Assembly (NCBI GenBank): GCA_017442855.1
Contig: JAFSPM010000026.1
Location: forward strand, 62,001-126,000
Direction of reading: 5' to 3'
DNA: 64,000 nt
Origin: Bacteroidaceae bacterium
GTDB lineage: Bacteria > Bacteroidota > Bacteroidia > Bacteroidales > Bacteroidaceae
Part shown: piece after piece, positions 2,849 to 57,020 of the stretch
Numbering within the stretch: position 1 is the first letter of the stretch
Layout of the letters: each line of letters opens with the position of its first letter
The notes under the pieces: model-generated
The model's input: the letters and a program-made list of their open reading frames with translations, nothing else
The model's database searches: none
What the model was told of the DNA's origin: nothing
Made by a program: the position numbers and the translations under genes

Positions 2849-5554
2849 TTAAAACTGTACACTTAACCCCAACGAATAGGAACGATACACTGGATAGGTG
2901 CGCTTATCGTCCAAGCCTAAGGTGTTGCTCACCACATTGCTGTTAATCATTGGTGTAAGGCCAGAATAACCAGTGATGGTGGCCAGGTTGTTTACCGACA
3001 TGGAAAGGCGCAGGTTGCGTACATAGCGGGTCTTCTTGAGTGGCACGTTCCAACCGATGGTAAGGTAGTCGAAGTTCAGGTAGTCACCTCGCTCTAACCA
3101 GTAGTCAGTAGCGGTCTGGTCATTGATGTTTTTCTGTGTAGCCTCAGGCAAGACATTATAATAAGGTAATGAGCCCAAATTCATATAGGTAAGTGATGTG
3201 CCATTGTATATCTTATGTCCGAAGGCACCGTTCACCTGCAAGGAAATGTCAAAGTCCTTGTAGCGGAAGCTGAAGTTGGAACCTATCAGGACCTTCGGGG
3301 TGGCTTGTCCTGCAATATAGCGGTCGGTTGCCACATCCTTCACTCCGTCGCCATTCAGGTCGGCAATCTCGTAGTTATACATGCCGTCCTCGCCCATAAC
3401 CAAGCCTGTGCAATGGGGTAGGTAAAACACACCCAACGGCTGTCCCACCACTTGATAGACAATGTCGTTATACCCACCGTGAAAGCCTGCTCCGTTCAGA
3501 GTACCGATAGCGGACATGCTGGGAGCAGTCAGGTAATCGTCGCCAAATTGTCCACTTAAGGATACCAGCTTGTTCTGTTGGAAGGCAATATTCACATTCG
3601 CGTTGAAATCAATGTCGCGCTTGTTGATGAGCGAGGCTCCGATGCCTATCTCCAGACCGCTGTTCTTCATTGAACCGATATTGGCCAACAGCTTGTCGTA
3701 AGGGTAGGGAGGCACGGTCACATTGTACATATAAAGCATGTCGGTAGTCTTCGACTTGTAATAGTCGGCTGTTATCACGAAGCGGTTGTTCAGCAAGCCT
3801 AACTCAACACCCATGTTGAAGGTGCTTTTCACCTCCCATTTCAAGTCGGGATTGGCATTGCGGATAATGCCCAACGTAACAGTGGGGGAACCGCTTACGG
3901 GCACTACACCATTGGGCTTTACCAATAGCTCCGAGTTGTAACTGTCTATCGCTCCCAAGTTGCCGCTCAGTCCGTAGCCTAAGCGCAGCTTCAGGTTGCT
4001 CACATAGGGTTTCGCTGGCTGCATGAAAGGTTCGTCGCTGACGACCCATGCCCCGGAGACTGAGGGGAAGAAACCCCATCGGTGGTTCTTGCCTACCTTG
4101 CTCGATGCGTCAGCTCTGGCGTTGATTGTCAGTGAGTAGCGTTCTTTGTAGTTGTAGTTGATGCGCCCCAATAACGAGGTCATGCGTGGATCCTCGTATG
4201 AGGAAGACGTCCCTTCCCATAGTCTCTCGGCACCAGCTTGCAGGTTGTGGTAGCCATAGTCATTGGTCGAAAGGTTCGAGGCGGTGGTATGAAATTCTTT
4301 TTGGGAGGTCTTCTGCACTTCCCCCAAGCCCAACAGGTCGATGTGATGTTGGCCATAGTTGCGTTCATAGCTTATCAGGAAGTTGCCCAGCATGTCTTCC
4401 ACCTTTGTCTCTCCTCGATAAATTTGTCCGTGGCTCCATACATACACTGGCATGAACTGCGACGAGTTCACTACATTGTAAGAATAAGAACCGAAGGCCG
4501 CAATGGATAGGCCGTGACCCAAATCCAACGATGCTTTGATGTGGGTGTTGAAGTGGGCATTGTCCTCATGGTCGAGGATGTCTAACAACGACTCTGGGTG
4601 GTTGATTTGCGATGCATCGGAATACTGGCTCCATGAGCCGTCGTCGTTGCGCCCAGTATGGAAGGTGGGGTTGAACGATGCCGATGAATAGAACAACTTT
4701 TGGTTATCGTGTATGTATTTGTTTTTCTAGAAGTAACCAAACATACCCAAGTCAATGGTCAGGTGGTTGTCGAAGCCCTTCTGCATCACGTCAATCTTCG
4801 CTGTGAAGTTGCGGTTGCCAATGCTTTGGATGATGGCGTTATGGTCTAAAAATTCCAATGAGGCACGAAATGACGACTGCTCTGTGCCACCACCGAAAGC
4901 CACGTGATGGCGATGTACCATGCCCGTTCGTGTGATGGAGGAGGGGAAATCGGAATTGAAGCCGTTATCCACAATGGTCAGTCCCATGCGATTCGTCACA
5001 CTGCGGTAGGTGTTGGCATCCATCATCTCCATATTCTTATAGACACTCTCGAAGCCCACATTGCCGTCATAGCTGATTTGGAAATTGCCAGCTTTCCCTT
5101 TTTTTGTGGCCACTTCGATAACGCCCGATGCGCCTCGGCTACCGTATTGCGCTGTCTCAGAGGCATCTTTCAATATGGTAAAGCTCTCTATATCGCCCGG
5201 ATAGATGCTGCTCAAAGTAGAAAGGTCGCTCTGTACGCCATCAATGATGACCAAGGGGTCGTTGCCACCCGTCAAGGAGGTGGTTCCCCTGACACGCACG
5301 GAACTCAGCATGGCCGCAGTGTTGGTGCCTGACGAGATACTTACACCAGCTGCTTGTCCGCTCAAAGCATCCAGCGAGTTGGTGATGAGACCTTTGTTCA
5401 TGCGGTCTTCGCCCACTTTCTCCACACTACCGCTTAAGGTCTTGGCGTTTCCCCTGGCATATCCCACACTCAGCGTATCAGTATGCTGGTTTTGGGCTGT
5501 AACCCCAAGTGCCAACCCCGATACGAAAATGAATGTCAAAAAAAATCTTTGCAT
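2849..5554 (-). pseudogene. SusC/RagA TonB-dependent transporter interrupted by an in-frame amber codon
   Basis: Two stretches in the same frame together encode a SusC-like outer-membrane transporter of about 900 residues. The first 275 residues hold a signal peptide (ending VTAQ), then the plug domain (ITNSLDALSGQAAGV, VRVRGTTSL, DPLVIIDGVQ, LKDASETAQYGSRGASGVI). A TAG at 4727-4729 (complement) stops the frame. Translation past it continues with KNKYIHDNQKLFYSSASFNP and the full beta-barrel to a C-terminal Phe. No frameshift is needed, so a single nonsense change explains the break. The N-terminal carboxypeptidase-regulatory-like domain of many SusC proteins is absent. Causes could be a true pseudogene, readthrough or a sequencing error. 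Confidence 0.85.
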
Positions 5555-6871: not shown

Positions 6872-8902
6872 TCACCATACATCAGCACGCTTTTCCTTCG
6901 GAATAAACATCGGGTCGGCTTCAGTGATGTTGAATGCTTCGTACCATGCATCAATCTGAGGCAGGGCACCATTTACACGCCAACGTCCTAATGAGTGAAC
7001 ATCGGTCTTGGTACGACGCAGAATCTCCTGGTCGGTGATGTTGTTAGCCCATACACCTGCGAAAGCCAGGAAGAAACGCTGGTCAGCAGTGAAGCCATCC
7101 TTGTCAGGCAGTGGATTATCCTTGGTAGCATTTTTGTAAGCTGTCCAAGCAATCTTCAAACCACCGTGGTCACCAATGTTCTCACCTAATGTCATAGCGC
7201 CATTGCCATAAACGCCAGGAGCTACCTCGATGCTTGAGAAGAAATCGATCAGTACTTGAGCACGCTCCTTGAAGTTCTTGTTGTCTTCCTCACTCCACCA
7301 GCCAGACATGTTACCGTCCTTGTCGAACTGACGGCCAGAATCGTCGAAGCCATGGCTCATTTCGTGACCGATTACCACACCGATACCACCATAGTTGAAG
7401 GCATCGTCAGCATTCATATCGAAGAAAGGAGGCTGGAGGATACCAGCTGGGAAGCAAATCTCATTGGTGGTTGAGCTATAGTAAGCGTTCACCGTCTGCG
7501 GAGTCATGTGCCACTCTGTTGGGTCAACAGGCTTGCCAAACTTGTCAATCTGCTCCTGATATCTCCACAAGCGAGCCACCTTAGAGTTCTCATAGTATGA
7601 CTTCTGTGGGTCAACGGTCAGACCTGAATAGTCTTTCCACTCGTCAGGATAACCAATCTTCACGCGGAAGGTAGCCAACTTAGCCAGTGCCTGCTCCTTG
7701 GTAGCATCGCTCATCCAAGTCAGGGCCTTGATACGCTCGCCCAAAGCTTCCTGTTCGCTCTTCACGAGTTCCACCATGCGAGCCTTTGCCTCAGGTGGGA
7801 AGAATTCCTTCACATACAGCTGACCAATTACTTCGCCCAGTGAACCCTCGGTAGCACGCAATGCACGCTTCCAACGAGGCTCCTGCTGCTGAACACCTGC
7901 CATCACACGACTGTTGAAGTCGAAGCTCTCAGCTACGAAATCATCGCTCAGGTTGTTGGCAGCTGCAGAAATCTGTTTCCACTGCAAGTAGAGAATTTGC
8001 TTGTCAACAGGCAGCTTGTCGATAATCTTTACGGCAGCTGTCATAGCCTCTGGCTGACCAACCACGATTTCCTTCACCTCACCCTGGATGCCCATGAGGT
8101 CGAATATCTTCTGGAAAGGAACAGATGGATACATCTTCTTTACCTCGTCAATGGTCATCTTGTTATAGTTAGCCTCTGGGTCACGCATCTGGGTGCGGCT
8201 ACGGAAGTTGTTAGCCAACTCGTTCTCTACATCCATCACCACGTCGCGAGCCTTCTGTGCCTCAGCCTCGCTGAAGCCAGCCAGCTTGAACATATTCACT
8301 ACGTGCTGCTTGAAAGCCTCACGGATTCTTACGGTATTGTCGTCATTCTCTTTGTAGTAGTCAATCTGACCCAGAGAAAGATTACCCTGACGCAGGCTCA
8401 TGATGTGTGACTTTGAATCTTTGGCATCGGTGCCAACGCCCAAGCTATAATATGCACTCACACCACGCTTGTTCAGCTCAGCCAACAACTCATACACATC
8501 TTTCTGGCTCTTCAGGGCAGCAATCTGTGCCATATCTTCCTTGATAGGATCAGCACCCTCAGCATTCAGGCGCACGCTATCCATTACAAGAGCATACATA
8601 TCACCTACCTTCTGCTCGTTGGTGCCAGTCTCGTGCTGGGTCTTAGCCAACTCCTGTACCATAGTGCTCAGTGCCTCTGATGCACGCTCAGACAACATGT
8701 CGAAGGTAGCAAAGCGAGCCTTGTCACCTGGAAGTGGATGCAGCTTCTGCCAACCACCATTCACATATTGGAAGAAATCGGTACCAGGCTCCTGGGTCTG
8801 GTCCATGTACTCCAGATGCAGACCTGATGTCTGCTCAGGAGTCTGGTTGCAAGCTACCAAAGCGAGGCTTGCCACCATTGTCAATAAATACTTTGCTTTC
8901 AT
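6872..8902 (-). CDS. M13 (neprilysin/PepO) family metalloendopeptidase, lipoprotein
   Basis: A 676-residue zinc endopeptidase of short peptides, anchored as a lipoprotein (LALVACNQTPEQ). It has an N-terminal helical M13 domain from about residue 35 (the PGTDFFQYVNGGW block) and a C-terminal catalytic domain. That domain holds HEMSH at 513-517 (zinc His pair and general base Glu), GENIGDHGG with the third ligand Glu, and the near-terminal RVNGALPQIDAWYEAFN block that is diagnostic of the family. All catalytic elements are present and the length is normal. Its own TACCTTTG box (complement of 8932-8939) sits just after the GH16 stop, so it is probably not dependent on GH16 transcription. Confidence 0.95.
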   Translation of the reverse strand: MKAKYLLTMVASLALVACNQTPEQTSGLHLEYMDQTQEPGTDFFQYVNGGWQKLHPLPGDKARFATFDMLSERASEALSTMVQELAKTQHETGTNEQKVGDMYALVMDSVRLNAEGADPIKEDMAQIAALKSQKDVYELLAELNKRGVSAYYSLGVGTDAKDSKSHIMSLRQGNLSLGQIDYYKENDDNTVRIREAFKQHVVNMFKLAGFSEAEAQKARDVVMDVENELANNFRSRTQMRDPEANYNKMTIDEVKKMYPSVPFQKIFDLMGIQGEVKEIVVGQPEAMTAAVKIIDKLPVDKQILYLQWKQISAAANNLSDDFVAESFDFNSRVMAGVQQQEPRWKRALRATEGSLGEVIGQLYVKEFFPPEAKARMVELVKSEQEALGERIKALTWMSDATKEQALAKLATFRVKIGYPDEWKDYSGLTVDPQKSYYENSKVARLWRYQEQIDKFGKPVDPTEWHMTPQTVNAYYSSTTNEICFPAGILQPPFFDMNADDAFNYGGIGVVIGHEMSHGFDDSGRQFDKDGNMSGWWSEEDNKNFKERAQVLIDFFSSIEVAPGVYGNGAMTLGENIGDHGGLKIAWTAYKNATKDNPLPDKDGFTADQRFFLAFAGVWANNITDQEILRRTKTDVHSLGRWRVNGALPQIDAWYEAFNITEADPMFIPKEKRADVW

Positions 8903-8931
8903 TAATATAACTTTAAATTACTAAAACGGTG

Positions 8932-8939
8932 CAAAGGTA
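8932..8939 (-). promoter_or_regulatory. -7 box of the M13 peptidase gene
   Basis: TACCTTTG on the minus strand, about 30 bp upstream of the peptidase start, in the 41-bp gap after the GH16 gene. Confidence 0.6.
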
Positions 8940-8943
8940 ATAA

Positions 8944-9762
8944 TTATTTTTGGAATACACGAATGTAATCCACTTTCATGGTAATAGGCAGTGCACTTTC
9001 GTCAACACCTTCCATGCCACCCCAGTTGCCGCCCCAAGCCAAGTTGAGGATAGGGTAGAATGCGTAGTGGAATGGCCATTCGTCATGACCTTCTCCCATC
9101 TCTGCCTTAGTAGCAGCCAGTTGTACCTGTCCGTCAACAAAGGTAGTAATAGCCTCTGGCGTCCATTCGCATGCATACACATGCCAACCTTCCTCAGCAT
9201 TCTCGATGTCGAGGTGGTGTGTTATCTGCGTACCTTTCACATGGTTATAGGTCTGTGTGTGCAATGAAGATGATACGTCATTGGGCACTACACCTACTTC
9301 CTCCATGATGTCAATCTCGCCACATTGCGGCCAACGGTATTCACTCTTTACAGGCATCATCCAGAATGCTGGCCACGTGCCTTTACCCTTAGGCAACCAG
9401 ATGCGAGCCTCAAAATAGCCATACTCCCAGCCTGTTTGGCGGTGTGCATATACACGACCAGAATATACCTTGCCGTCAGAGCCAGTGAAGCAATGAATCT
9501 CCAGGTTGCCGTCTTTGATCTCCGTCACTCGCTTGCCGTCGGCTTCACCGTTGCGGTAGTTCTGCAACTCGTTGTTCACCCAGTGGTCATCCTTCACCTC
9601 GTGCATCCATTCGTCACTCAGTTCGCTACCCTCGTTAAACTCATCGTGCCACACCAGCTGATAACCCTCTGGTGCCACGATTTCCATCTCTTCATTTGCT
9701 TTTTTGGTTCCACAAGATGTCATCAGCGCACCTGCCAAACCGAATAATAGTAACTTTCTCAT
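8944..9762 (-). CDS. GH16 family beta-glucanase, lipoprotein
   Basis: A 272-residue secreted lipoprotein (lipobox at LMTSCGTKK). It belongs to the GH16 jelly-roll hydrolases, probably laminarinase or lichenase type. Seen are the LVWHDEFNEG start of the domain, the catalytic motif GEIDIMEEVG with Glu149 (nucleophile), Asp151 and Glu154 (acid/base), and WPAFWMMP and NLAWGGNWGG substrate-cleft segments. The length is that of a single catalytic domain. The next gene, 24 bp upstream, is a CE1-type esterase on the same strand, so the two may be co-expressed for plant or algal glucan use. Whether it cuts beta-1,3 or mixed-linkage glucan cannot be settled here. Confidence 0.92.
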   Translation of the reverse strand: MRKLLLFGLAGALMTSCGTKKANEEMEIVAPEGYQLVWHDEFNEGSELSDEWMHEVKDDHWVNNELQNYRNGEADGKRVTEIKDGNLEIHCFTGSDGKVYSGRVYAHRQTGWEYGYFEARIWLPKGKGTWPAFWMMPVKSEYRWPQCGEIDIMEEVGVVPNDVSSSLHTQTYNHVKGTQITHHLDIENAEEGWHVYACEWTPEAITTFVDGQVQLAATKAEMGEGHDEWPFHYAFYPILNLAWGGNWGGMEGVDESALPITMKVDYIRVFQK

Positions 9763-9786
9763 TATTGATTATAATTAATTTTCAAT

Positions 9787-10968
<1,182 letters not shown>

Positions 10969-48026: not shown

Positions 48027-50405
48027 ATGGATATGGAAAGAAACAAATTAATCCGACTTTTCGCCTTGTTGCCTTTGGCCACAGTGCTGACCATGTGTAC
48101 CGACGACATGGCTGAACGAGGTCTTGGCTATGGCGAGGCCCATACGCCTATTGCCCTCAACGTGGCATTTGATCAGTCAGAGAAGGCTGACACCAGGGCT
48201 GCTGATGGTTTGCAGAACACTGGTTTTCTGCCTACTTATCAATTCCTTCGCCTGTTTGCTGACCAGAATGACGATAATTATACTCAATACGAAACTACCT
48301 ATAAACCAACGGCCGCTACCACCATTGCCGTGCAGAGTGGCGCTGCGGTGCCCTATTTCAAGGCTGGTGGAACGGCTGTTAATGTGTATGGCTGGTATCC
48401 CGCCTTGGACAACAATAAAAGCTTTACGGTGCAGGATGACCAAAGTACACAAGACAACTATGTGAAGAGCGATCTGCTATTGGCCAACAAAGTGCAGAGC
48501 ACACGTAATCTTGGCACAGGTGTTGTAACGCCGGCTACCCTAACATTCAGTCACGTGATGTCGAAGATTGTACTGAATGTTACGGCTGGCGACGGTGTCA
48601 CGGTCAATAACGTGAGGTTGGCCGGTGTGAAGAAAACCGTTGCCATCAATGATGCTACAAAGACAGCGCTGACATTAGGCTCCGCATCAGGCGATGCTGG
48701 CGAGGTGACTGTTCATAGCACATCATTCACAAGCAGCAGTGGTAAGCAAACCATGGCGGCTGTTATCCCTCCGCAGAGTGTAAGCGGCGACTTCATTAAA
48801 GTGAATGTCGCGGTAGGTGGCAGCTCAAGAGATGTCACCTTCGCCTTGGGTGAAGCCAAAACTTTGGCTACCAACCAGACCTACACGCTGACGCTGACCG
48901 TGAACAAGCAGAACATTGGTGCCACGCTTACCATTTCTGGTTGGACAGCATCCTCATCTGCCGTCGATATTGCACCTTCCACCGAGGGCGGAGGCGGTCT
49001 TCTCAGCCTTGACGAAAACATTTTTGATACCACTTATAGCACAACAAGCCCCACACTAAATGTTACTGCTACAACAGATTGCTCATCTGTACAAGCTACG
49101 AGCACCAATACCGGTGTGGCAACCGTATCTGTTAGTGGTAAAGTAACCACCATCACAGCTGTTCATGCAGGAACTGCCAAGGTGGTAATCTCGGAAGTGG
49201 GAGGTGATGATTTCGGCGTGGTGGAGGTCACCGTCAACAAGGCCACCACTGCCGTTGCTACTGCACCGACTAAGAAAAGTGGTCTTAACTATAACACAAG
49301 TGCTCAGGCATTGATAAATGCTGGTACCGCGACCAATGGTACAATACAATATAGTACGGATGGTAGCAGTTATGATACTACTATACCTACAGGTACCAAT
49401 GCTGGCAATTATAATGTTTGGTATAAGGTGGTGGCCCCGAACGCAACTGATTATACAGGTGATACCGATCCTGTAAAACTTGAGAATATCAATATTGCCA
49501 AGATAGCGAATACAGTGTCTGTAAGCCCCACTTCTTTGACGATTGGAGGTGTTAGTGGTACGAATTCTGCAACCGTCAGCCGTAATGGTGATGGCACAAT
49601 TACCATTAATACCAGTAATTCAAGTGCAGCATCTGCTACTGAAATTAATCAGAATACAGGTGTTGTAACTGTTACTGGTGGTGGTACTGCTGGAAATGCC
49701 GAGCTTACCATCAGTGTGGCAGAGGGTACTAATTATTTAGCAGCTACTAATGCGGCTACTATAAATGTCACCACAGTTGCCGATCCTGGTGTTCCTGCTG
49801 CAGATGTTACATCTACTAACATTAGCTTAGGATGGTATCTGGCTAAGAATGGTAAGGTATATGAAAACAAGTCAGATGCTGATGGTATTGGAACAGGTGC
49901 CGTTGCTGCAATTGCTTATATCGGTACTTTGGATAAGTATTTCGATAAGTTCTTAGCTATTGCCTTGGAGGATGCGGCAGCTAGCTATGCAAATTGGAGC
50001 ACTCAATTAACTGCTGTAAATACTTGGGCCGGAACTCACGCTGTAACTATTGGTAGTACTACTTATAATACAGGAACAACTGGAAGTTCTAAATATGATA
50101 CGGTTTCTTCATCATTTACTTCTGTAACTGCAGCTCAAACTCCGCCAGCATCATTATTGAAGGGTTGGCGTATGCCGAGTATGACTGATATCAACGCAGC
50201 CGTTAATGGTCTTGGTGCTGGCAATTACGCAACATTGCGTGACTGGTTCAGTACTCATGGTGGTACTAACATGCAGTCCAACTACTATTGGAGTAGTTCG
50301 GAGCTCAGTAGCAGCAGCGCTTGGCGCAGGCTCTTCAGTAGCGGTAATTGGTACGACGTCAGTAAGACGGGCAATTACTATGTTCGCGCAGTGTTCGCAT
50401 ATTAA
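48027..50405 (+). CDS. DGR-diversified pilus tip adhesin (fimbrillin N-terminus, Ig-like repeats, C-terminal variable domain)
   Basis: 792 residues. An N-terminal fimbrillin region (about 1-320; HVMSKIVLNVTAGDGV, LTLTVNKQNIGATLTISGW) is followed by bacterial Ig-like segments (about 330-590; VSPTSLTIGGVSGTNSATVS). The C-terminal about 190 residues (from ISLGWYLAKNGKVYENKSDA) contain LLKGWRMPSMTDINAAV and end in the variable repeat, YYWSSSELSSSSAWRRLF to VRAVFAY. This is the C-type-lectin-like arrangement of DGR targets, with the hypervariable part at the extreme C-terminus as the retroelement requires. N-terminal pilin plus C-terminal variable lectin implies a tip adhesin. Last gene of the switch-controlled run. 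Confidence 0.88.
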   Translation: MDMERNKLIRLFALLPLATVLTMCTDDMAERGLGYGEAHTPIALNVAFDQSEKADTRAADGLQNTGFLPTYQFLRLFADQNDDNYTQYETTYKPTAATTIAVQSGAAVPYFKAGGTAVNVYGWYPALDNNKSFTVQDDQSTQDNYVKSDLLLANKVQSTRNLGTGVVTPATLTFSHVMSKIVLNVTAGDGVTVNNVRLAGVKKTVAINDATKTALTLGSASGDAGEVTVHSTSFTSSSGKQTMAAVIPPQSVSGDFIKVNVAVGGSSRDVTFALGEAKTLATNQTYTLTLTVNKQNIGATLTISGWTASSSAVDIAPSTEGGGGLLSLDENIFDTTYSTTSPTLNVTATTDCSSVQATSTNTGVATVSVSGKVTTITAVHAGTAKVVISEVGGDDFGVVEVTVNKATTAVATAPTKKSGLNYNTSAQALINAGTATNGTIQYSTDGSSYDTTIPTGTNAGNYNVWYKVVAPNATDYTGDTDPVKLENINIAKIANTVSVSPTSLTIGGVSGTNSATVSRNGDGTITINTSNSSAASATEINQNTGVVTVTGGGTAGNAELTISVAEGTNYLAATNAATINVTTVADPGVPAADVTSTNISLGWYLAKNGKVYENKSDADGIGTGAVAAIAYIGTLDKYFDKFLAIALEDAAASYANWSTQLTAVNTWAGTHAVTIGSTTYNTGTTGSSKYDTVSSSFTSVTAAQTPPASLLKGWRMPSMTDINAAVNGLGAGNYATLRDWFSTHGGTNMQSNYYWSSSELSSSSAWRRLFSSGNWYDVSKTGNYYVRAVFAY
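50274..50402 (+). repeat. DGR variable repeat (VR)
   Basis: 43 codons, CAG to TAT, directly before the stop. Compared with TR2, of equal length, I count 21 differences: 19 fall on template adenines (for example AAC to TAC, CTC, CGC, GTC, GGC) and two do not (a template G matched by A where TR1 has A, and one C to T). The last 24 bases before the TAA are unchanged and form the homing-initiation segment. Confidence 0.96.
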
Positions 50406-50438
50406 CCTCTTTATCTCTTCACCTCTTCACCTCTTAAG

Positions 50439-50474
50439 CGGCATCGGGTCGCATGATAAAACGACCCGATGCCG
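50439..50474. other. Hairpin/cruciform downstream of the VR
   Basis: A perfect 13-bp stem, CGGCATCGGGTCG (50439-50451) with CGACCCGATGCCG (50462-50474), and a 10-nt loop, starting 36 bp after the VR. No T-run follows on the plus strand. DGRs often need such a structure next to the VR for efficient homing. Confidence 0.8.
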
Positions 50475-50548
50475 TCAGGGAGCAAGAGCGCGGTGGTAAT
50501 ATAAAACGAGCCGTACGTAAGAGCGGATCGTAAGCGCAACAGAATAGA

Positions 50549-50669
50549 GTTCCCTTGTTGGAAACACCCAGTTCCTCGGTAGGGAACAGGCAATTCCCAA
50601 GTAGGGAACAATCCAAAGGAGATATTTTAATCCCTCGTGAGGGAGAAAATAACCTAACGTAGGGAAGAA
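50549..50669. repeat. Cluster of small palindromes
   Basis: Five neighbouring imperfect palindromes built on TTCCC/GGGAA, among them GTTCCTCGGTAGGGAAC, ATTCCCAAGTAGGGAAC and AATCCCTCGTGAGGGAG, spaced about 20-35 bp apart between the VR hairpin and the first TR unit. Role unknown. Confidence 0.6.
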
Positions 50670-50768
50670 AATAAGAGCTCTTTGAAATAATTTGCAACAG
50701 AATCCGTCCGATGCATTAGCAATACATATAGAATTCTTCTCGTCGAATCTTTCGGCTTGAAGGTGGTA

Positions 50769-51099
50769 TTCGCTTGCGAGAGTCCTGCCGGTCATGGCTT
50801 GCAGGAGTGAGCAGTATCATTTTTGATATGGGTCACCGACTGGACGATTTTTTTATTGAGCATTGAACATTGAGCATTGAACATTAAACTTCGTTCTAAT
50901 CTTAATTTCATAATTCAATCAACAAATTTCGTTTAGTAAAGACAAAATGGTGGCTAAAGCAGTCCAACAACTATTGGAGTAGTTCGGAGAACAGTAGCAA
51001 TAGCAGCAACGCTTGGAACAGGAACTTCAATAACGGTAATTGGAACAACAACAATAAGACGAACAACAACAACTATGTTCGCGCAGTGTTCGCATATCG
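50769..51099 (+). repeat. DGR template unit 1
   Basis: Leader of about 190 bp (TTCGCTTGCGAGAG, a TCCTGC/GCAGGA stem, several ATTGAACATT words) followed by TR1 at 50960-51097. The leader is almost identical to that at 51281-51465, differing by a 7-bp repeat and one T. Confidence 0.9.
50960..51097 (+). repeat. DGR template repeat TR1
   Basis: 138 bp, rich in AAC/AAT codons. It is 9 bp longer than TR2 and the VR (an extra AATAGC and an extra AAC). It has AAC at the codon where TR2 has GAC and the VR has AGC. Confidence 0.92.
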
Positions 51100-51280
51100 G
51101 AAAGATGCAGATAACTAAATTTTGTGTCGAGCGGGTATTTCTGTTGTTTATTATACGGGTGAATGTCCTGATAGCTTCGCCCGTAGCAAGAGGTTGAATG
51201 AATCAACCTAATGATCTATGACTTATTGAAACAGGGAATTGAAATAGGATATTCCGGCTTAAGAATATATATATATGTAC
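51100..51280. other. Spacer between the two template units
   Basis: Not coding. Contains two hairpins: ACGGGTGA/TCGCCCGT and AGGTTGA/TCAACCT, then a TATATATATA tract. Confidence 0.5.
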
Positions 51281-51596
51281 TTCGCTTGCGAGAGTCCTGC
51301 CGGTCATGGCTTGCAGGAGTGAGCAGTATCATTTTTTGATATGGGTCACCGACTGGACGATTTTTTTATTGAGCATTGAACATTGAACATTAAACTTCGT
51401 TCTAATCTTAATTTCATAATTCAATCAACAAATTTCGTTTAGTAAAGACAAAATGGTGGCTAAAGCAGTCCAACAACTATTGGAGTAGTTCGGAGAACAA
51501 TAGCAGCAACGCTTGGAACAGGAACTTCAATGACGGTAATTGGAACAACAACAATAAGACGAACAACAACTATGTTCGCGCAGTGTTCGCATATCG
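51281..51596 (+). repeat. DGR template unit 2
   Basis: Second copy of the leader plus TR2 (51466-51594). The two units are in direct orientation about 510 bp apart. From here to 51882 the sequence is non-coding apart from the repeat fragment at 51762. Confidence 0.9.
51466..51594 (+). repeat. DGR template repeat TR2
   Basis: 129 bp, the same length as the VR, with 48 adenines by my count and 16 AAC/AAT codons. A-to-N change at the first two positions of AAY codons cannot create stop codons. It ends in the same 24-bp segment as the VR. Confidence 0.95.
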
Positions 51597-51761
51597 AAAG
51601 GATACTTGATATTGAAATTAGCAGATCTGTCCTTAAAGTCCGAAATATCTCATGATAGTGTTCATGATTCATTTCATGCCTATAGTCTATTTCTTTCCCC
51701 TGTTACAATAAGCCATAAAAACACAAGGGAACCACTTCCCCTGTGCACAAAGGCGCCAGGA

Positions 51762-51811
51762 GCCAACCCCTCCTGCCGCCACGATGCCAAGCCAAGTGGC
51801 AAGGCACAATG
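51762..51811 (+). repeat. Fragment of the cassette-array spacer repeat upstream of the DGR enzymes
   Basis: CCGCCACGATGCCAAGCC and AAGGCACAAT resemble the 5' part of the spacers at 57111, 58321, 59279 and 60128. The DGR enzyme genes are therefore bordered by this repeat family on both sides (next copy at 54167). Confidence 0.6.
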
Positions 51812-51882
51812 ATTTATGATGTGATAATATATATGGATTTTTGCGTCAAGGCAAAAGGAAAGAAGAAAATAAACAATATGCT

Positions 51883-52506
51883 ATGACAGAAAAAGAGGTT
51901 TTGGAGAAACAGGAGGAGAACGGCCAGCAGGAGTACTACCTGATACTGATAGGCTCGTTCTTGCATGCCTACGGGCAAGGGGCTTTTGCCCTGGCAAGGG
52001 CTACAGGCTACAAGGTGAAGCGCAAGCACCGCAAGTTGGGCGAGGTGCTGACGGCCGGCTTCCCCGCTACCCGCATAGACCAGGTGATGGAGAAGATTGT
52101 GGCGGCAGGGGGTGAGGCAGCGCCCTTGGAGGACGGCAAGACCTGGCTGTTCAAAGGCATTGACGGCACGCCCGACGAGAGCATGATTGCAGAACCCGAC
52201 TGGAAAGCCTTGCCTCCCAATCACTCCCTGTTTTACAATGGCGAGGTTGGCTTGCCTGTCAGGAATGTGGTGCCGGAAGCCGTCAGAGAGGCATTCCCTC
52301 CAAGCTCCTCCCCATGTAAAGGGGAGGTGTCCGAAGGATGCTCTACCTATAGCTCCTCCCCATGTAAAGGGGAGGTGTCCGAAGGACGGAGGGGTAATGA
52401 CTTTCACTGGCTGGCCGATGCCCTGCGCAACTTCAACCTCTCGGCAGCAACGCCCTTGGAAGCCATGATGTTTGTCGGTGACTTGCAGGTGAAGCTAAAA
52501 GACTAA
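51883..52506 (+). CDS. DGR accessory protein, MutS N-terminal-like (MSL type)
   Basis: 207 residues from MTEKEVLEKQEENGQQEYY. The first about 100 resemble the MutS mismatch-recognition domain (YLILIGSFLHAYGQGAFALA, then LTAGFPATRIDQVMEKIVAA), without any MutS ATPase. MutS-like accessory proteins are one of the known DGR accessory classes. Residues about 141-171 are encoded by two in-frame copies of a palindromic repeat (SSSPCKGEVSEG twice). The C-terminus (DFHWLADALRNFNL) resumes normal sequence. It is 3 bp before avd. Confidence 0.75.
   Translation: MTEKEVLEKQEENGQQEYYLILIGSFLHAYGQGAFALARATGYKVKRKHRKLGEVLTAGFPATRIDQVMEKIVAAGGEAAPLEDGKTWLFKGIDGTPDESMIAEPDWKALPPNHSLFYNGEVGLPVRNVVPEAVREAFPPSSSPCKGEVSEGCSTYSSSPCKGEVSEGRRGNDFHWLADALRNFNLSAATPLEAMMFVGDLQVKLKD
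52303..52396 (+). repeat. Two palindromic repeats inserted in frame in the MSL gene
   Basis: Two copies, 48 bp apart, of AGCTCCTCCCCATGTAAA plus GGGGAGGTGTCCGAAGGA. The CTCCCC/GGGGAG arms are complementary. The 48-bp period keeps the reading frame. Confidence 0.9.
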
Positions 52507-52509
52507 AAG

Positions 52510-52860
52510 ATGGCACTGAGTGAGGAACTTCCGATATATAAGTCTGCCTACGACCTATTAGAGAAGATGATTGAGCTGGCAAAAGAACTGCCGAAGTTTT
52601 ACCGCTATACATTAGGTACACGCATGGTGGATTTGAACCTTGACATACTGGGACAGATTTACCGCGCCAACATGAGCAAGGAGAAGCGCAGGGAGGCGCT
52701 GGGCGAGTTGTTGATCAGCTACCGCCAGCTGCAGATGCTGCTGCGTGTGTGCTACAGGGATAAAGCCTTCTCGACGGGCCGCTACGCTATGTATATCCAG
52801 CTGTTAGACACCATAGGCAAGCAGGCTACGGCGTGGAAAAACAAGATAGTTGAGAATTGA
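52510..52860 (+). CDS. avd: DGR accessory variability determinant (Avd), four-helix bundle
   Basis: 116 residues, all helical, beginning MALSEELPIYKSAYDLLEKM with the family-typical IYRANMSKEKRREALGELLI centre and basic surface. Avd forms a barrel-shaped pentamer that binds the reverse transcriptase and template RNA and is needed for mutagenic cDNA synthesis. Related to the 23S rRNA intervening-sequence proteins; its place directly before the RT settles the assignment. Confidence 0.93.
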   Translation: MALSEELPIYKSAYDLLEKMIELAKELPKFYRYTLGTRMVDLNLDILGQIYRANMSKEKRREALGELLISYRQLQMLLRVCYRDKAFSTGRYAMYIQLLDTIGKQATAWKNKIVEN

Positions 52861-52877
52861 GAATTGACAATTGAGAA

Positions 52878-54149
52878 TTGAATGTTCAATCTTCAATCTT
52901 CAATGTGGAAGAGACAGGCGGCATCAGTCTGGAGCAAGTCATTGAGGCGTTCTACGACTGCCTGAAACGTAAGCGGGGCACTGTCAACGCGCAGGAGTTC
53001 GAGTATGACTACGAGAGCAACTGCATAGATCTTTGGAAAGAAATAAACAACGGAACCTACGAGCCAAGACGCTCGATAGCTTTCGTGATAGACCATCCCG
53101 TGAAGCGGGAGATCTTTGCCGCCGACTTCAGGGACCGTGTGGTACACCACCTGATAGCCCGGCAGATATACCCCTTGTTGGAGCGGCAGTTCCTGGTGGA
53201 CAGCTACTCTACGCAGAAAGGCAAGGGAACGCTCTTTGGAATAAAACGTGTGGAACAGCACGTCAAGGCATGCAGCGAGAACTACACCAAGGACTGCTGG
53301 ATACTGAAGCTCGACATCAGCGGCTACTTCATGAGCATCGACAAGCAGCTGCTGTATGACTGCATCAAGCGGTTCTTGGATGATAGGTATAAGGATGCCG
53401 ACAAGGCCATATTGCTTTATCTGCTGCGCAAGACCATCTTCAACCGCCCCGAAAAGGACTGCATCTTGAAGGTGCCCCACTGGCGGTGGAAGGGCTTGCC
53501 CAAGAACAAGAGCCTGTTTGGCACCGACGGCAAGAAGGGCCTGCCTATAGGCAACCTCACCAGTCAGCTTTTAGCGCTGCTGTTCCTCGACGAGTTGGAC
53601 CACCTGATAACCGAGCAGTGGGGCGTGCCGCACTACGGCCGCTATGTGGATGACATGGTACTGGTGCATGAGTCGAGAGACTACCTTTTAGAGGTGAAAG
53701 AGATGATAGAGGCATGGCTGAATGAGCATGGCCTGAAGCTGCATCCCAAGAAGGTGTACTTGCAGCACTACACCAAGGGCGTGATGTTTGTGGGCGGCAT
53801 GATAAAGCCAGGGCGCAAATACATCTCCAAGCGCACGGTGGGAAAGATGTTCGCCAAGATCAACCGCTTCAACCGCATGTTCGAGAGCGGTGAGCCGGTG
53901 ACCAGTGAGCAGATAGACAACTTGATGGCTACCATGAACAGCTATTTGGGCATGATGAGGCACTACGCCAGCTACAACCTCTTCCACCGTGTACTGAAGA
54001 GGATGAACAACCACTGGTTCAAGTATGTATATGTGGAGCAGCGCAGTGGACGCCGCTACAAGATGGCGAAGATGGATAACAACATCCGTTCGCTGTGTGA
54101 AAGCCTGAACATGGTCTCATCGTATGAGAACCTGAGCATGGCAGCATAA
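52878..54149 (+). CDS. DGR reverse transcriptase
   Basis: About 423 residues counted from a TTG at 52878; a GTG at 52905 is an equally possible start, and no in-frame ATG is near. RT motifs: WILKLDISGYFMSI (motif A), LPIGNLTSQ at 222-230 (the IGxxxSQ form that marks DGR enzymes), YVDDM with catalytic Asp258 and Asp259, and LHPKK. It copies the TR RNA with errors at adenines to rewrite the VR of the tip adhesin. No maturase or endonuclease domain, so it is not a group II intron. It ends 18 bp before the first spacer repeat of the cassette array. Confidence 0.97.
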   Translation: MNVQSSIFNVEETGGISLEQVIEAFYDCLKRKRGTVNAQEFEYDYESNCIDLWKEINNGTYEPRRSIAFVIDHPVKREIFAADFRDRVVHHLIARQIYPLLERQFLVDSYSTQKGKGTLFGIKRVEQHVKACSENYTKDCWILKLDISGYFMSIDKQLLYDCIKRFLDDRYKDADKAILLYLLRKTIFNRPEKDCILKVPHWRWKGLPKNKSLFGTDGKKGLPIGNLTSQLLALLFLDELDHLITEQWGVPHYGRYVDDMVLVHESRDYLLEVKEMIEAWLNEHGLKLHPKKVYLQHYTKGVMFVGGMIKPGRKYISKRTVGKMFAKINRFNRMFESGEPVTSEQIDNLMATMNSYLGMMRHYASYNLFHRVLKRMNNHWFKYVYVEQRSGRRYKMAKMDNNIRSLCESLNMVSSYENLSMAA

Positions 54150-54815: not shown

Positions 54816-57020
54816 ATGGAAACAAGTTATTATGAGAAGATGAATAAAGGATTGCAGTATATAGACGCAATCTTTCAGATAATTTTTGACAAGTCAAATC
54901 ATATGTCATTGTTAGACCCTCGTTATATTTACAGGGGGGTGAGGGGCCATTATTTCACCTCATGCAGGAATATTGACAAATGGGATAATAAGAAACCCCA
55001 ATTACTGAAAGAGCTTAGAGACAATGCCGATAAGAATAGTCCTAGCTATAAAAGGTTTGAGCATGTTATTACTAAACAAGATGTTGACATTACGGATTAT
55101 GAAATCTACACAATTCTGAAGACAAAGTATATTGAGGAAGTAGAAAAGAAGGAGGATGTTAAGGATGGTAAGGTTAGTCCAATTAGCATTCTGAATGACT
55201 ATTTCTCAAGAAGGGAAGCGGTTAATGAGGAGTTCAAAATATATAATGATATGATAAAAGTGATAGCGCCTTATCATATCAAGTCGGGAGCGGCTGTTCG
55301 CTTGGGCAAATCTCTTGAAGAACGTAATCACGTTGACTATATAAACTACCTGCATTATCTGATCAATGATGCCAAACTGCGGTTCAGTGAATACAAGGAA
55401 AAAAATTACTCTGACTTGGAGATACTGGCTGACTTGCAGCATAAGGGCGCAGGGTCGTGCTTAGTGGATTTCAGCACCAACATGTTTATCTCGCTTTGGT
55501 TTGCCGTGCAGCCGGCAGACAATGTGGAAGATGATATTTCCTACCTTTTCTGCTACGATGTGAATCAAGACATGATAGAGAAAGATAACCTATCAACGTT
55601 GAGCGAGAAAGACTATAAGAATAGGACAATAGATGAACTGTTGTTTGAAACCAGAAAGACCAATAAATATACGGGCGATGCGTCATATAAATTTTGGTTA
55701 TGGAGACCGTCATTCTTGAATGAAAGGATAGCCCGCCAAGACAGCATGTTTATTTTCGGGTTAGAGGCTTTCAATCTGAAGGAGCATGGTGTTATAGCAA
55801 TACCTATTTTCCCTAAATGGAAAAAGCCTATCCTTATGGTGTTGGAAACCTTTATGGGACTGAACGAGGCAAGCATTTATTGTGACAGGAACGGATATGC
55901 GCAGGCCAATTCAAAGCTGAAGCCATACGGCAAATTCCCACAGCAGGAAGATGAATCAAAGAAATTGGAGACACAGGAAAAAGGCTGTGAACCAGAGAAA
56001 GACAAAGAAAAAAAGTTGACAATCGACCATTTCCAAATAGGGATGGAATGTTTGCTCAAGTGTGAATACAGCTCTGCCTACCAGTATTTTTGTAGGTATG
56101 AGGACACTCTGGAAAACAAGGACAAAGATGCTAAGCATATTAACAGAAAGAAATCGTCTACTGCTATTGTTGGCAAGAAGGAATTAACTGTTCCTGATGT
56201 TGAAAAATATATGAAGGAAATAGAGTTGCTTTTCTCAAAAGCCTTGTGCTTAAAACACATGGATAAAACGTATCAGGCAATTGTTTACTACGAGAAAGCA
56301 TTGGAAAAGTCAAATATATTAAAGTTTGCATTTGATAAGTATTGTAAAGAGGTAGCAACAGATGTTAGATATGAATCCTATCAAGAGTATTTGAAAAATA
56401 AGCGTCTTAAAATTCTGAATGACTATATCGAATTGCTATATATTGTTGATAAGTATTGGGATGCCTATAGAATAATCAAAGAGAATATTATTTATGAAAA
56501 ACAGTTTGATGCCATTGCCGTTGCACACATGGAGCAGCTGTGGGTGCTTACTATGTTACAAGGGAAAGTAATGCATGTAAAAAATAATGAGAAAATGAGT
56601 ATAAAAGAATTGATCAAGATTGATGAGAATTATGCTATCCTCAAAGAAAATCTTGGCTTTAATAGAATACCATCTGAAGGCTATCCTTTTCTCAATTTGT
56701 TGGAGTGTTATTTTGATAATATTGTAAATATTATTGTAGATAATGTCCAGTATTACAAAATAAACATTGATATTGAAAATAAAATAAAGAAGGTAATAAG
56801 TTTCGTATCAGCAACGCAGAAAGGCAACAAAGACTGCAAGATTGATACAAAAGAAATTATACCAAGTCATTACAGCTGGCAATTCAAACATATGTATAGG
56901 TATATTGAAAAGTTGAAGGATGTGGATAATAACAAGTATCACACCTTGATGGACATGACCTCGAAGCTGCAAGGACTGACCGAGCAGGTGAACAGCTTGC
57001 TTACCATCAAGCCGTATTGA
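54816..57020 (+). CDS. FRG-domain protein with TPR-like C-terminus
   Basis: 734 residues. FRG domain (about 25-370): YIYRGVRGHYFTSC, LQHKGAGSCLVDFSTNMFIS and NERIARQDSMFIF. A charged linker at about 380-405 (EDESKKLETQEKGCEPEKDK) precedes a helical, TPR-like region. FRG domains occur in phage-defence and toxin contexts; their activity is not well defined. The gene is clearly AT-rich compared with the DGR and pilus genes. It lies after cassette 1's terminator, lacks the left terminal repeat of the other units, and shows no obvious -7 box. Confidence 0.8.
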   Translation: METSYYEKMNKGLQYIDAIFQIIFDKSNHMSLLDPRYIYRGVRGHYFTSCRNIDKWDNKKPQLLKELRDNADKNSPSYKRFEHVITKQDVDITDYEIYTILKTKYIEEVEKKEDVKDGKVSPISILNDYFSRREAVNEEFKIYNDMIKVIAPYHIKSGAAVRLGKSLEERNHVDYINYLHYLINDAKLRFSEYKEKNYSDLEILADLQHKGAGSCLVDFSTNMFISLWFAVQPADNVEDDISYLFCYDVNQDMIEKDNLSTLSEKDYKNRTIDELLFETRKTNKYTGDASYKFWLWRPSFLNERIARQDSMFIFGLEAFNLKEHGVIAIPIFPKWKKPILMVLETFMGLNEASIYCDRNGYAQANSKLKPYGKFPQQEDESKKLETQEKGCEPEKDKEKKLTIDHFQIGMECLLKCEYSSAYQYFCRYEDTLENKDKDAKHINRKKSSTAIVGKKELTVPDVEKYMKEIELLFSKALCLKHMDKTYQAIVYYEKALEKSNILKFAFDKYCKEVATDVRYESYQEYLKNKRLKILNDYIELLYIVDKYWDAYRIIKENIIYEKQFDAIAVAHMEQLWVLTMLQGKVMHVKNNEKMSIKELIKIDENYAILKENLGFNRIPSEGYPFLNLLECYFDNIVNIIVDNVQYYKINIDIENKIKKVISFVSATQKGNKDCKIDTKEIIPSHYSWQFKHMYRYIEKLKDVDNNKYHTLMDMTSKLQGLTEQVNSLLTIKPY

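Follow-up and report, generated by a model that had tools for sequence, protein, structure and literature searches.

In the diversity-generating retroelement (DGR) described here, each of the two template repeats (TRs) is preceded by a predicted structured leader RNA, segments of which are complementary to the 5' border and the 3' end of the TR that follows. The element is located in a Bacteroides-type genome, within a window (the whole stretch of DNA analysed) of 64,000 nt from a Bacteroidaceae bacterium (GCA_017442855.1, contig JAFSPM010000026.1, positions 62,001-126,000 of the forward strand). The choice of start and stop in DGR copying has been worked out so far for one phage element, and a leader of this kind would provide a simple sequence-based start/stop rule, readable from genome sequence of any source.

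The DGR and its target gene

The locus is a DGR because it combines adenine-specific differences between the variable repeat (VR) and the TRs with an Avd protein and a reverse transcriptase (RT) on the DGR side of the tree. The earlier note had proposed a complete DGR aimed at a pilus tip protein, and we found the adenine-biased VR/TR pair, Avd, the DGR-side RT, the VR hairpin, two TRs and a fimbrillin-type target at the following positions.

48027..50405, + strand: target gene, 792 aa, fimbrillin-like, with a C-terminal Lcl_C-like domain containing the VR (ORF and Pfam)
50273..50402, + strand: VR (repeat comparison with the TRs)
50439..50474, + strand: GC-rich hairpin 3' of the VR, with a perfect 13-bp stem and a 10-nt loop, 36 nt after the VR
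50959..51097, + strand: TR1, encoding 3 residues more than TR2
51465..51594, + strand: TR2, equal in length to the VR
51841..52506, + strand: accessory ORF, MutS domain I-like below the cut-off, ATG start at 51884
52510..52860, + strand: avd (Pfam bAvd, PHROG)
52878..54149, + strand: DGR RT, 423 aa (profile matches, tree)

The target matches Pfam Mfa_like_1 at 96.1 bits (cut-off 27) and Lcl_C at 22.2 bits, under the cut-off of 34.9. Its C-terminal VR, together with the excerpted text of PMC12632263, suggests a pilus tip protein with a C-type lectin fold. The same excerpts, citing Macadangdang et al. 2024, describe type V tip pilins of Bacteroides that are diversified by DGRs; since DGRs against such pilins are already published, the element belongs to a known kind. 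It shares with them the host group, the fimbrillin-type target and the RT/Avd/TR/VR set, and differs from the excerpted description in having two TR cassettes.

Aligned without gaps over 130 positions, the VR and TR2 show 21 differences, 19 of which fall on TR2 adenines, exactly as had been counted before; substitutions thus affect 19 of 48 adenines versus 2 of 82 other bases (Fisher p 4.5e-8). The changed adenines occupy first (9) and second (10) codon positions and no third position. The two exceptions are G51532 of TR2, which is A in both TR1 and the VR, and C51567, which is C in both TRs and T in the VR. TR1 carries in-frame insertions of 6 nt and 3 nt relative to TR2, and the compared segment comprises 43 codons at the TR2 length or 46 at the TR1 length.

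Both RT motifs named earlier, IGNLTSQ and YVDD, are present, the latter read from the translation because the motif regex first matched an earlier FLDD. The RT matches the PHROG RT at 331.7 bits, and its best PDB sequence is 8ub7_A (E 4e-24), a 328-aa RT that we take, judging by length, to be that of BPP-1. The earlier note had named grouping with group II intron or retron enzymes as evidence against a DGR. In a 37-row tree that took in two group II intron RTs and no retrons, the window RT falls with the BPP-1 bRT on the DGR side, apart from the intron RTs (100/100); it does not group with ltrA, lacks the QGxxxSP motif and reaches 103 of 300 bits for group II intron RTs in NCBIfam. Retrons were compared by NCBIfam scores only (St85, 52 bits versus a family cut-off of 235). 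Avd matches Pfam bAvd at 50.6 bits (cut-off 40), the PHROG 'Avd protein of DGR' at E 5e-25, and NCBIfam DivGenRetAVD at 56.4 bits, under the cut-off of 80. The accessory ORF is also present, but the MutS-like character ascribed to it finds a weak match in Pfam MutS_I (19.9 bits versus a cut-off of 20.6; 20.3 bits for its paralogue on C31, another contig of this genome).

The set of parts had further been called unusual. It is less so than had been supposed, since the gene order recurs at a second locus on C31; the unusual part of the locus is the structured leader before each TR, which was absent from that claim. The window DGR resembles that of BPP-1 (AY029185) in adenine mutagenesis, Avd, a DGR RT and a hairpin after the VR, while its 10-nt hairpin loop differs from the 4-nt GRNA loop of phage DGR hairpins described in the excerpts of PMC3240598.

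Leader RNAs and their predicted pairing with the template repeats

The leader segments and their predicted partners are as follows.

50770..50843, + strand: leader 1 core, with P1, P2 (CATG tetraloop at 50793-50796), J, P4 and the 5' strand of P5 (R1/R2 matches, covariation)
50820..50830, + strand: J of leader 1, 11-nt complementarity to 51093-51103
50832..50837, + strand: P4 5' strand of leader 1, complementary to 50949-50954
50949..50954, + strand: P4 3' strand of leader 1, immediately 5' of TR1
51093..51103, + strand: TR1 3' end and flank, J partner of leader 1 (complementarity)
51282..51356, + strand: leader 2 core (R1/R2 matches)
51332..51343, + strand: J of leader 2, 12-nt complementarity to 51590-51601
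51345..51350, + strand: P4 5' strand of leader 2, complementary to 51455-51460
51455..51460, + strand: P4 3' strand of leader 2, immediately 5' of TR2
51590..51601, + strand: TR2 3' end and flank, J partner of leader 2 (complementarity)

Across 22 leaders, 99.1% of the 214 cells of the P2 hairpin are paired, with a covariation score of 0.766 versus 0.235 for shuffled and at most 0.126 for slid alignments. Leaders folded alone are no more stable than their shuffles (z -0.30 to -1.35). An H-type pseudoknot joining the loop of P2 to the leader 3' end (columns 20-23/67-70) was considered first, with 100% of cells paired, and then rejected: those 3' bases form much better pairs as P4 with the 5' border of the TR, where compensatory changes are also seen.

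Pairing of leaders with their own TRs was assessed by partner permutation, with strands chosen automatically in the anchored P4, J, 21-locus and both ten-locus tests. In the anchored P4 test, the anchor was present in 24 of 42 TRs and none of 20,000 permutations scored as well; scores were low for L109 and L012. The separate J test likewise had 0/20,000 permutations as good. Over 21 loci, leaving out L012 and L110 (no anchor in the J test), J paired with the TR end at z 6.5 and P4 with the TR start at z 7.9, each with 0/20,000 permutations as good, and dereplication to 16 loci gave z 5.5 and 6.9, respectively. The control windows of the 21 loci yielded no excess, either for J (z -0.4, -2.5 and -1.0 against TR start, mid-TR and downstream) or for P4 (z -0.3, 0.9 and -1.2 against TR end, mid-TR and downstream).

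Ten loci outside the R2 model training, anchored by RT-7/R1/R2 matches, gave 76/50,000 for J against the TR end, and three to five of them had no convincing J stem there. Ten further loci, located by R2, gave 2/50,000 for J against the end and 139/50,000 for P4 against the start, with all six control comparisons staying within z -1.1 to 0.2; J and P4 are near-identical among many of these loci, so the effective n is smaller than 10, and L192 is the contig of L014, which already belongs to the other set. These ten came from 18 loci, without L183 (the L012 training contig), without L189, L191, L193, L194 and L199 (no TR call) and without L195 and L198 (partial model matches). Unconstrained folds of seven cassettes (WIN1 left out) recovered the J:TR-end pairing in four, P4 in five and both in two. 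MT836212 (L175) has a leader match yet neither pairing. An unanchored search for leader:TR-start stems was too wide to discriminate (native 18.0 versus swapped 16.7, sd 2.7). The leader:TR alignment contains compensatory changes on both helix sides, although the strands were here chosen by eye, so that the shuffles of this analysis overstate the signal.

Outside the window genome, 14 of the 18 order-level R2 matches have an RT or an adenine-biased TR/VR pair, the others being L189 (with an ltrA-like RT match), L191, L194 and L199. R1 matches of ~24 bits in G169, G443 and G337 were taken as false, with no RT nearby and no R2 match. One further genome (G184) has a leader match of 30-36 bits and no RT was found there. 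A pattern search of viral contigs for the window-type leader gave no matches. R2 does locate a leader at the avd end, before the TR, in the Bacuni F2/F4 phage DGR, and in F4 this leader is accompanied by a 10-bp J stem; as described in the excerpts of PMC8143477, these elements differ from the window in their phage host, single TR and lack of an annotated MutS-like ORF.

The only Rfam relative of the leader, a distant one, is RT-7 (RF03028). By eye, its consensus shows the same helix order and the same position beside an RT, with a CAAG-type hairpin loop and a P4-like closing helix; in DGR loci within the genus it stops where the TR begins. P1-P2 of RT-7 leaders is matched by R2 with 14.6-26 bits. 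RT-7 itself gave no gathering match in the window, and the DGR locus there remained without a match even when E values as high as 1 were allowed; the best RT-7 match among the relatives was 26.4 bits in G063, versus a cut-off of 116.8. The literature searched contained no description of a 5' TR leader or of RT-7 in DGRs, and an earlier description may exist.

A model for template copying and its alternatives

It is quite probable that the locus is an adenine-mutagenic DGR whose leader pairs with both TR ends, sets cDNA start and stop, and forms with its TR a duplicable cassette. Leader and TR would fold into a closed loop bound by RT and Avd. By analogy with BPP-1 (excerpts of PMC12875486), cDNA synthesis would start at the J:TR-3'-end duplex, and the P4/P5 stems at the TR 5' border would stop it. 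The cDNA may then enter the VR on the side of the GC hairpin, and adenine-mutagenic reverse transcription would thereby rewrite the 3' end of the fimbrillin-type gene. As all control elements lie 5' of the TR, leader plus TR would form an independent unit open to duplication, and the two such units here would give rise to VR loops of 43 or 46 codons, the present VR having presumably been last written from a template of TR2's length.

It is quite possible, however, that TR1 and TR2 are functionally equal, one of them being a degenerating copy that contributes nothing to length diversity: the leader+TR cassettes are near-identical, and the single VR found in this 80%-complete genome has TR2's length. 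Yet both cassettes keep the full leader:TR complementarity, and inside the TR they are distinguished only by a pair of in-frame codon indels and a single base. That the locus is a relic of a formerly working DGR, now inactive, seems unlikely given that the RT, Avd and target ORFs are all open and both leaders intact, even though the RT of the C31 paralogue contains an in-frame TGA and one adenine common to TR1 and the VR is lost in TR2. A very improbable reading is that the complementarity is a by-product of shared ancestry or A/T-rich composition and the leader merely a promoter or 5' UTR; the leaders found in the window, on C31 and in G063 are indeed close relatives, and A and T predominate in several J segments, but the permutations preserve composition, the control windows lack any excess and the compensatory changes affect both helix sides.

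If leaders do set start and stop, the rule would predict which template a leader serves, find DGRs from RNA alone and explain template duplication as cassettes; the cassette would also allow extra templates to be brought into a laboratory DGR diversifier.

Two possible layouts of the template RNA

The BPP-1 TR is adjoined by a YANG-tetraloop hairpin, as the window TRs are by the leader hairpin. In the excerpts of PMC12875486, the folded control RNA of BPP-1 lies 3' of the TR (spacer) and a terminating motif lies 5', in avd, whereas all control RNA detected in the window is 5' of the TR, with no YANG hairpin within 150 nt 3' of TR1 or TR2. Phage Lagaffe, like BPP-1, has a leader-like hairpin 3' of the TR. 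DGR template RNAs might therefore exist in two circularly permuted layouts, with the RT/Avd-binding domain 5' in most sampled loci and 3' in BPP-1/Lagaffe, a possibility that we regard as somewhat doubtful. In the 5' layout, the domain would pair with both TR ends and hold cDNA start and stop side by side. Such a layout would make leader plus TR portable, so one RT could serve several templates of differing loop length, perhaps including those of a neighbouring DGR such as that on C31.

We lowered our confidence in the permuted layouts because of 3' hairpins in other TRs, R2 misses and a long-branch warning. The R2 covariance model with filters off did not find the BPP-1 spacer (best 5.4 bits, elsewhere), R2 found no leader in Lagaffe, phPA-G, Magia, BS-TP1 or the Segatella plasmid DGR, and BPP-1 and Lagaffe are possibly joined by long branches in the RT tree. 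Hairpins 5' of the TR are significant in 30 of 49 TRs, that of L008a being a different hairpin from the leader's. Those 3' of the TR are significant at 0.05 in seven of the 49 (BPP-1, Lagaffe, L042, L124, L129, L134 and L143). The 3' hairpin of L129 resembles a second leader.

The retroelement and its two templates

The window carries a diversity-generating retroelement (DGR) in a source genome of 2.76 Mb that is 80% complete. Its parts, and the other DGRs of this genome, are:

48027-54149: window DGR
50273-50402: variable repeat (VR)
50770-50843 and 51282-51356: cores of leaders 1 and 2
50959-51097 and 51465-51594: template repeats TR1 and TR2
51841-52506: MutS-like ORF
L042, G000:C31:50000-66000: paralogous DGR, with its reverse transcriptase (RT) at 8593-9855
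L043/L166, G000:C27: third DGR, TR 3085-3274, VR 4703-4892, RT-7-class leader (45.8 bits)

The VR forms the 3' end of a fimbrillin-like gene (792-aa product), the last in a run of five adjacent ORFs with Mfa_like_1 matches (Pfam), and the RT, Avd and a weakly matching MutS-I-like ORF are located after the templates. The adenine bias reported in the earlier note was reproduced, with 19 of 21 VR/TR2 differences on template adenines, and all 19 fall at codon positions 1 or 2. In a tree, the RT clusters with 34 other DGR-side RTs, including that of BPP-1, separately from two ltrA proteins, in agreement with the note's assignment. The element is an additional member of the pilin-targeting Bacteroides DGRs.

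TR1 and TR2 lie in tandem units spaced by ~510 nt and differ internally by one base change and by 6-nt and 3-nt in-frame insertions, so that the compared segment encodes 46 residues in TR1 and 43 in TR2. The VR has the length of TR2 and carries at 51532 the A of TR1, where TR2 has G; either this mutable adenine seems to have disappeared from TR2 since the VR was written, or the VR has a mosaic origin. Searching the whole genome with TR1 gave four places, namely TR1, TR2, the window VR and the TR of the C31 DGR. The latter has its parts in the same order and adenines at all 14 sites differing between VR and TR, and its RT is interrupted by an in-frame TGA; the window RT might act in trans on this DGR; alternatively, the TGA might reflect a misassembly. 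In the C27 DGR, 19 of 21 VR/TR differences are on A.

Around these parts, a pyrimidine-rich track with a period of roughly 9 nt (50403-50438) runs from the VR stop codon to the downstream hairpin, with similar tracks 3' of the VR in several relatives. Within the MutS-like ORF, a REP-like inverted repeat of 36 bp occurs in frame as two identical copies (52303-52338 and 52351-52386), and the DGR is followed downstream by a gene for a protein with an FRG domain and a weakly matching TPR (54816-57020).

A leader RNA complementary to both template ends

Leader identity between C14, the window contig, and C31 is 93%, while the RT proteins share only 72%, and the element was found again 5' of TRs in other DGRs. 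In an alignment of 22 leaders, helix P2 is a hairpin with a YANG-type tetraloop, paired in 99.1% of 214 cells, with a covariation of 0.766 (shuffled, 0.235; slid, at most 0.126). Among 21 leaders tabulated by eye, GG directly precedes P4 in all 21 and the P4-P5 gap is 1 nt in 18 of 20. Isolated leaders folded no better than shuffled sequences. The P5 arm of both window leaders holds an A/T-rich insert (50849-50932 and 51362-51438), part of which, of the ATTGAGCATTGAACATTGA type, matches many dispersed places across the genus.

First, P4 is complementary to the bases immediately 5' of the TR (0 of 20,000 permutations; 24 anchored of 42 loci, the P4 strand being located solely from its motif). 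Second, J, the 20 nt preceding GG-P4, is complementary to the TR 3' end and the first flanking bases (0 of 20,000; 19 anchored of 21 loci), also at 0 of 20,000 in 14 dereplicated loci. Across the 21 loci and controls, a fit was confined to the TR end for J and to the TR start for P4. The J test gave 76 of 50,000 at ten further loci outside the R2 covariance model of the leader; at ten R2-located loci from genomes of the order, J gave 2 and P4 139 of 50,000, and six control comparisons there gave values near zero. The J stems in the window span 11 nt for TR1 and 12 nt for TR2. Some of the loci sampled depart from the pairing pattern. These comparisons argue strongly for a predicted leader:TR pairing in the window-type RNA layout and point indirectly to its putative function. 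The RNA layout of the window DGR appears to be a new variant.

Association with DGRs and relation to known RNAs

A scan of the genus (158 genomes) with R2 produced 20 matches, 16 of them with E <0.001. Of these 16, 14 have a DGR RT no more than ~2.5 kb away (in one case a fragment at a contig end); the match on G063:C2 has an A-biased TR/VR pair and that on G063:C76 a TR-like match only. At the level of the order, 393 genomes yielded 18 matches outside the source genome, one (L183) on a training contig: 11 have a DGR-like RT within 1.5-kb flanks (12 if one ltrA-like protein is counted), 13 an A-biased TR/VR pair and 14 either.

No Rfam family reached its own cut-off within the window; in a relative, RT-7 (RF03028) scored 26.4 bits against a cut-off of 116.8. 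RT-7 appears to be the leader for another branch of DGR templates, because its matches within the genus in G022, G058, G129 and G000:C27 end where the called TRs start and its consensus has the helix order of the window-type leader. These likenesses suggest that R2-type leaders and RT-7 form one superfamily. An Rfam scan of twelve DGR loci (E up to 1) gave RT-7 in L115 only.

In BPP-1, the 3' spacer is described as folding, recruiting bRT-Avd (bRT, the BPP-1 RT) and priming, with termination by a motif 5' of the TR (PMC12875486). The window has a leader 5' of each TR; a YANG hairpin lies 17 nt 3' of the TR in BPP-1 (p 0, 100 shuffles) and 29 nt 3' in Lagaffe (p 0.01, 100 shuffles), and neither of these two elements has a significant one 5' of its TR. 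A permuted layout, with the control RNA 3' of the TR, is only a proposal, since 3' hairpins are present at other loci too and R2 detected neither spacer.

Leader-TR cassettes at other loci

In a hand-made list of 31 loci drawn from model matches, seven have two or three leaders, including the window, L008, L013, L020 and loci in G087 and G095 found with RT-7. In L008, both TRs match a single VR; in L013, L020, G087 and G095, a TR with a VR was established for at most some of the leaders. Multiple TRs as such have been published (PMC6642488, PMC4891356). G095 contigs C20, C22, C25, C35, C38, C43 and C100 carry ten RT-7-type leader matches, against three RT matches in the genome; given the contig breaks, the cassettes are at most candidate orphans. 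At L129 (G047:C51), a second leader-like hairpin lies 85 nt 3' of the TR, suggesting a further tandem cassette.
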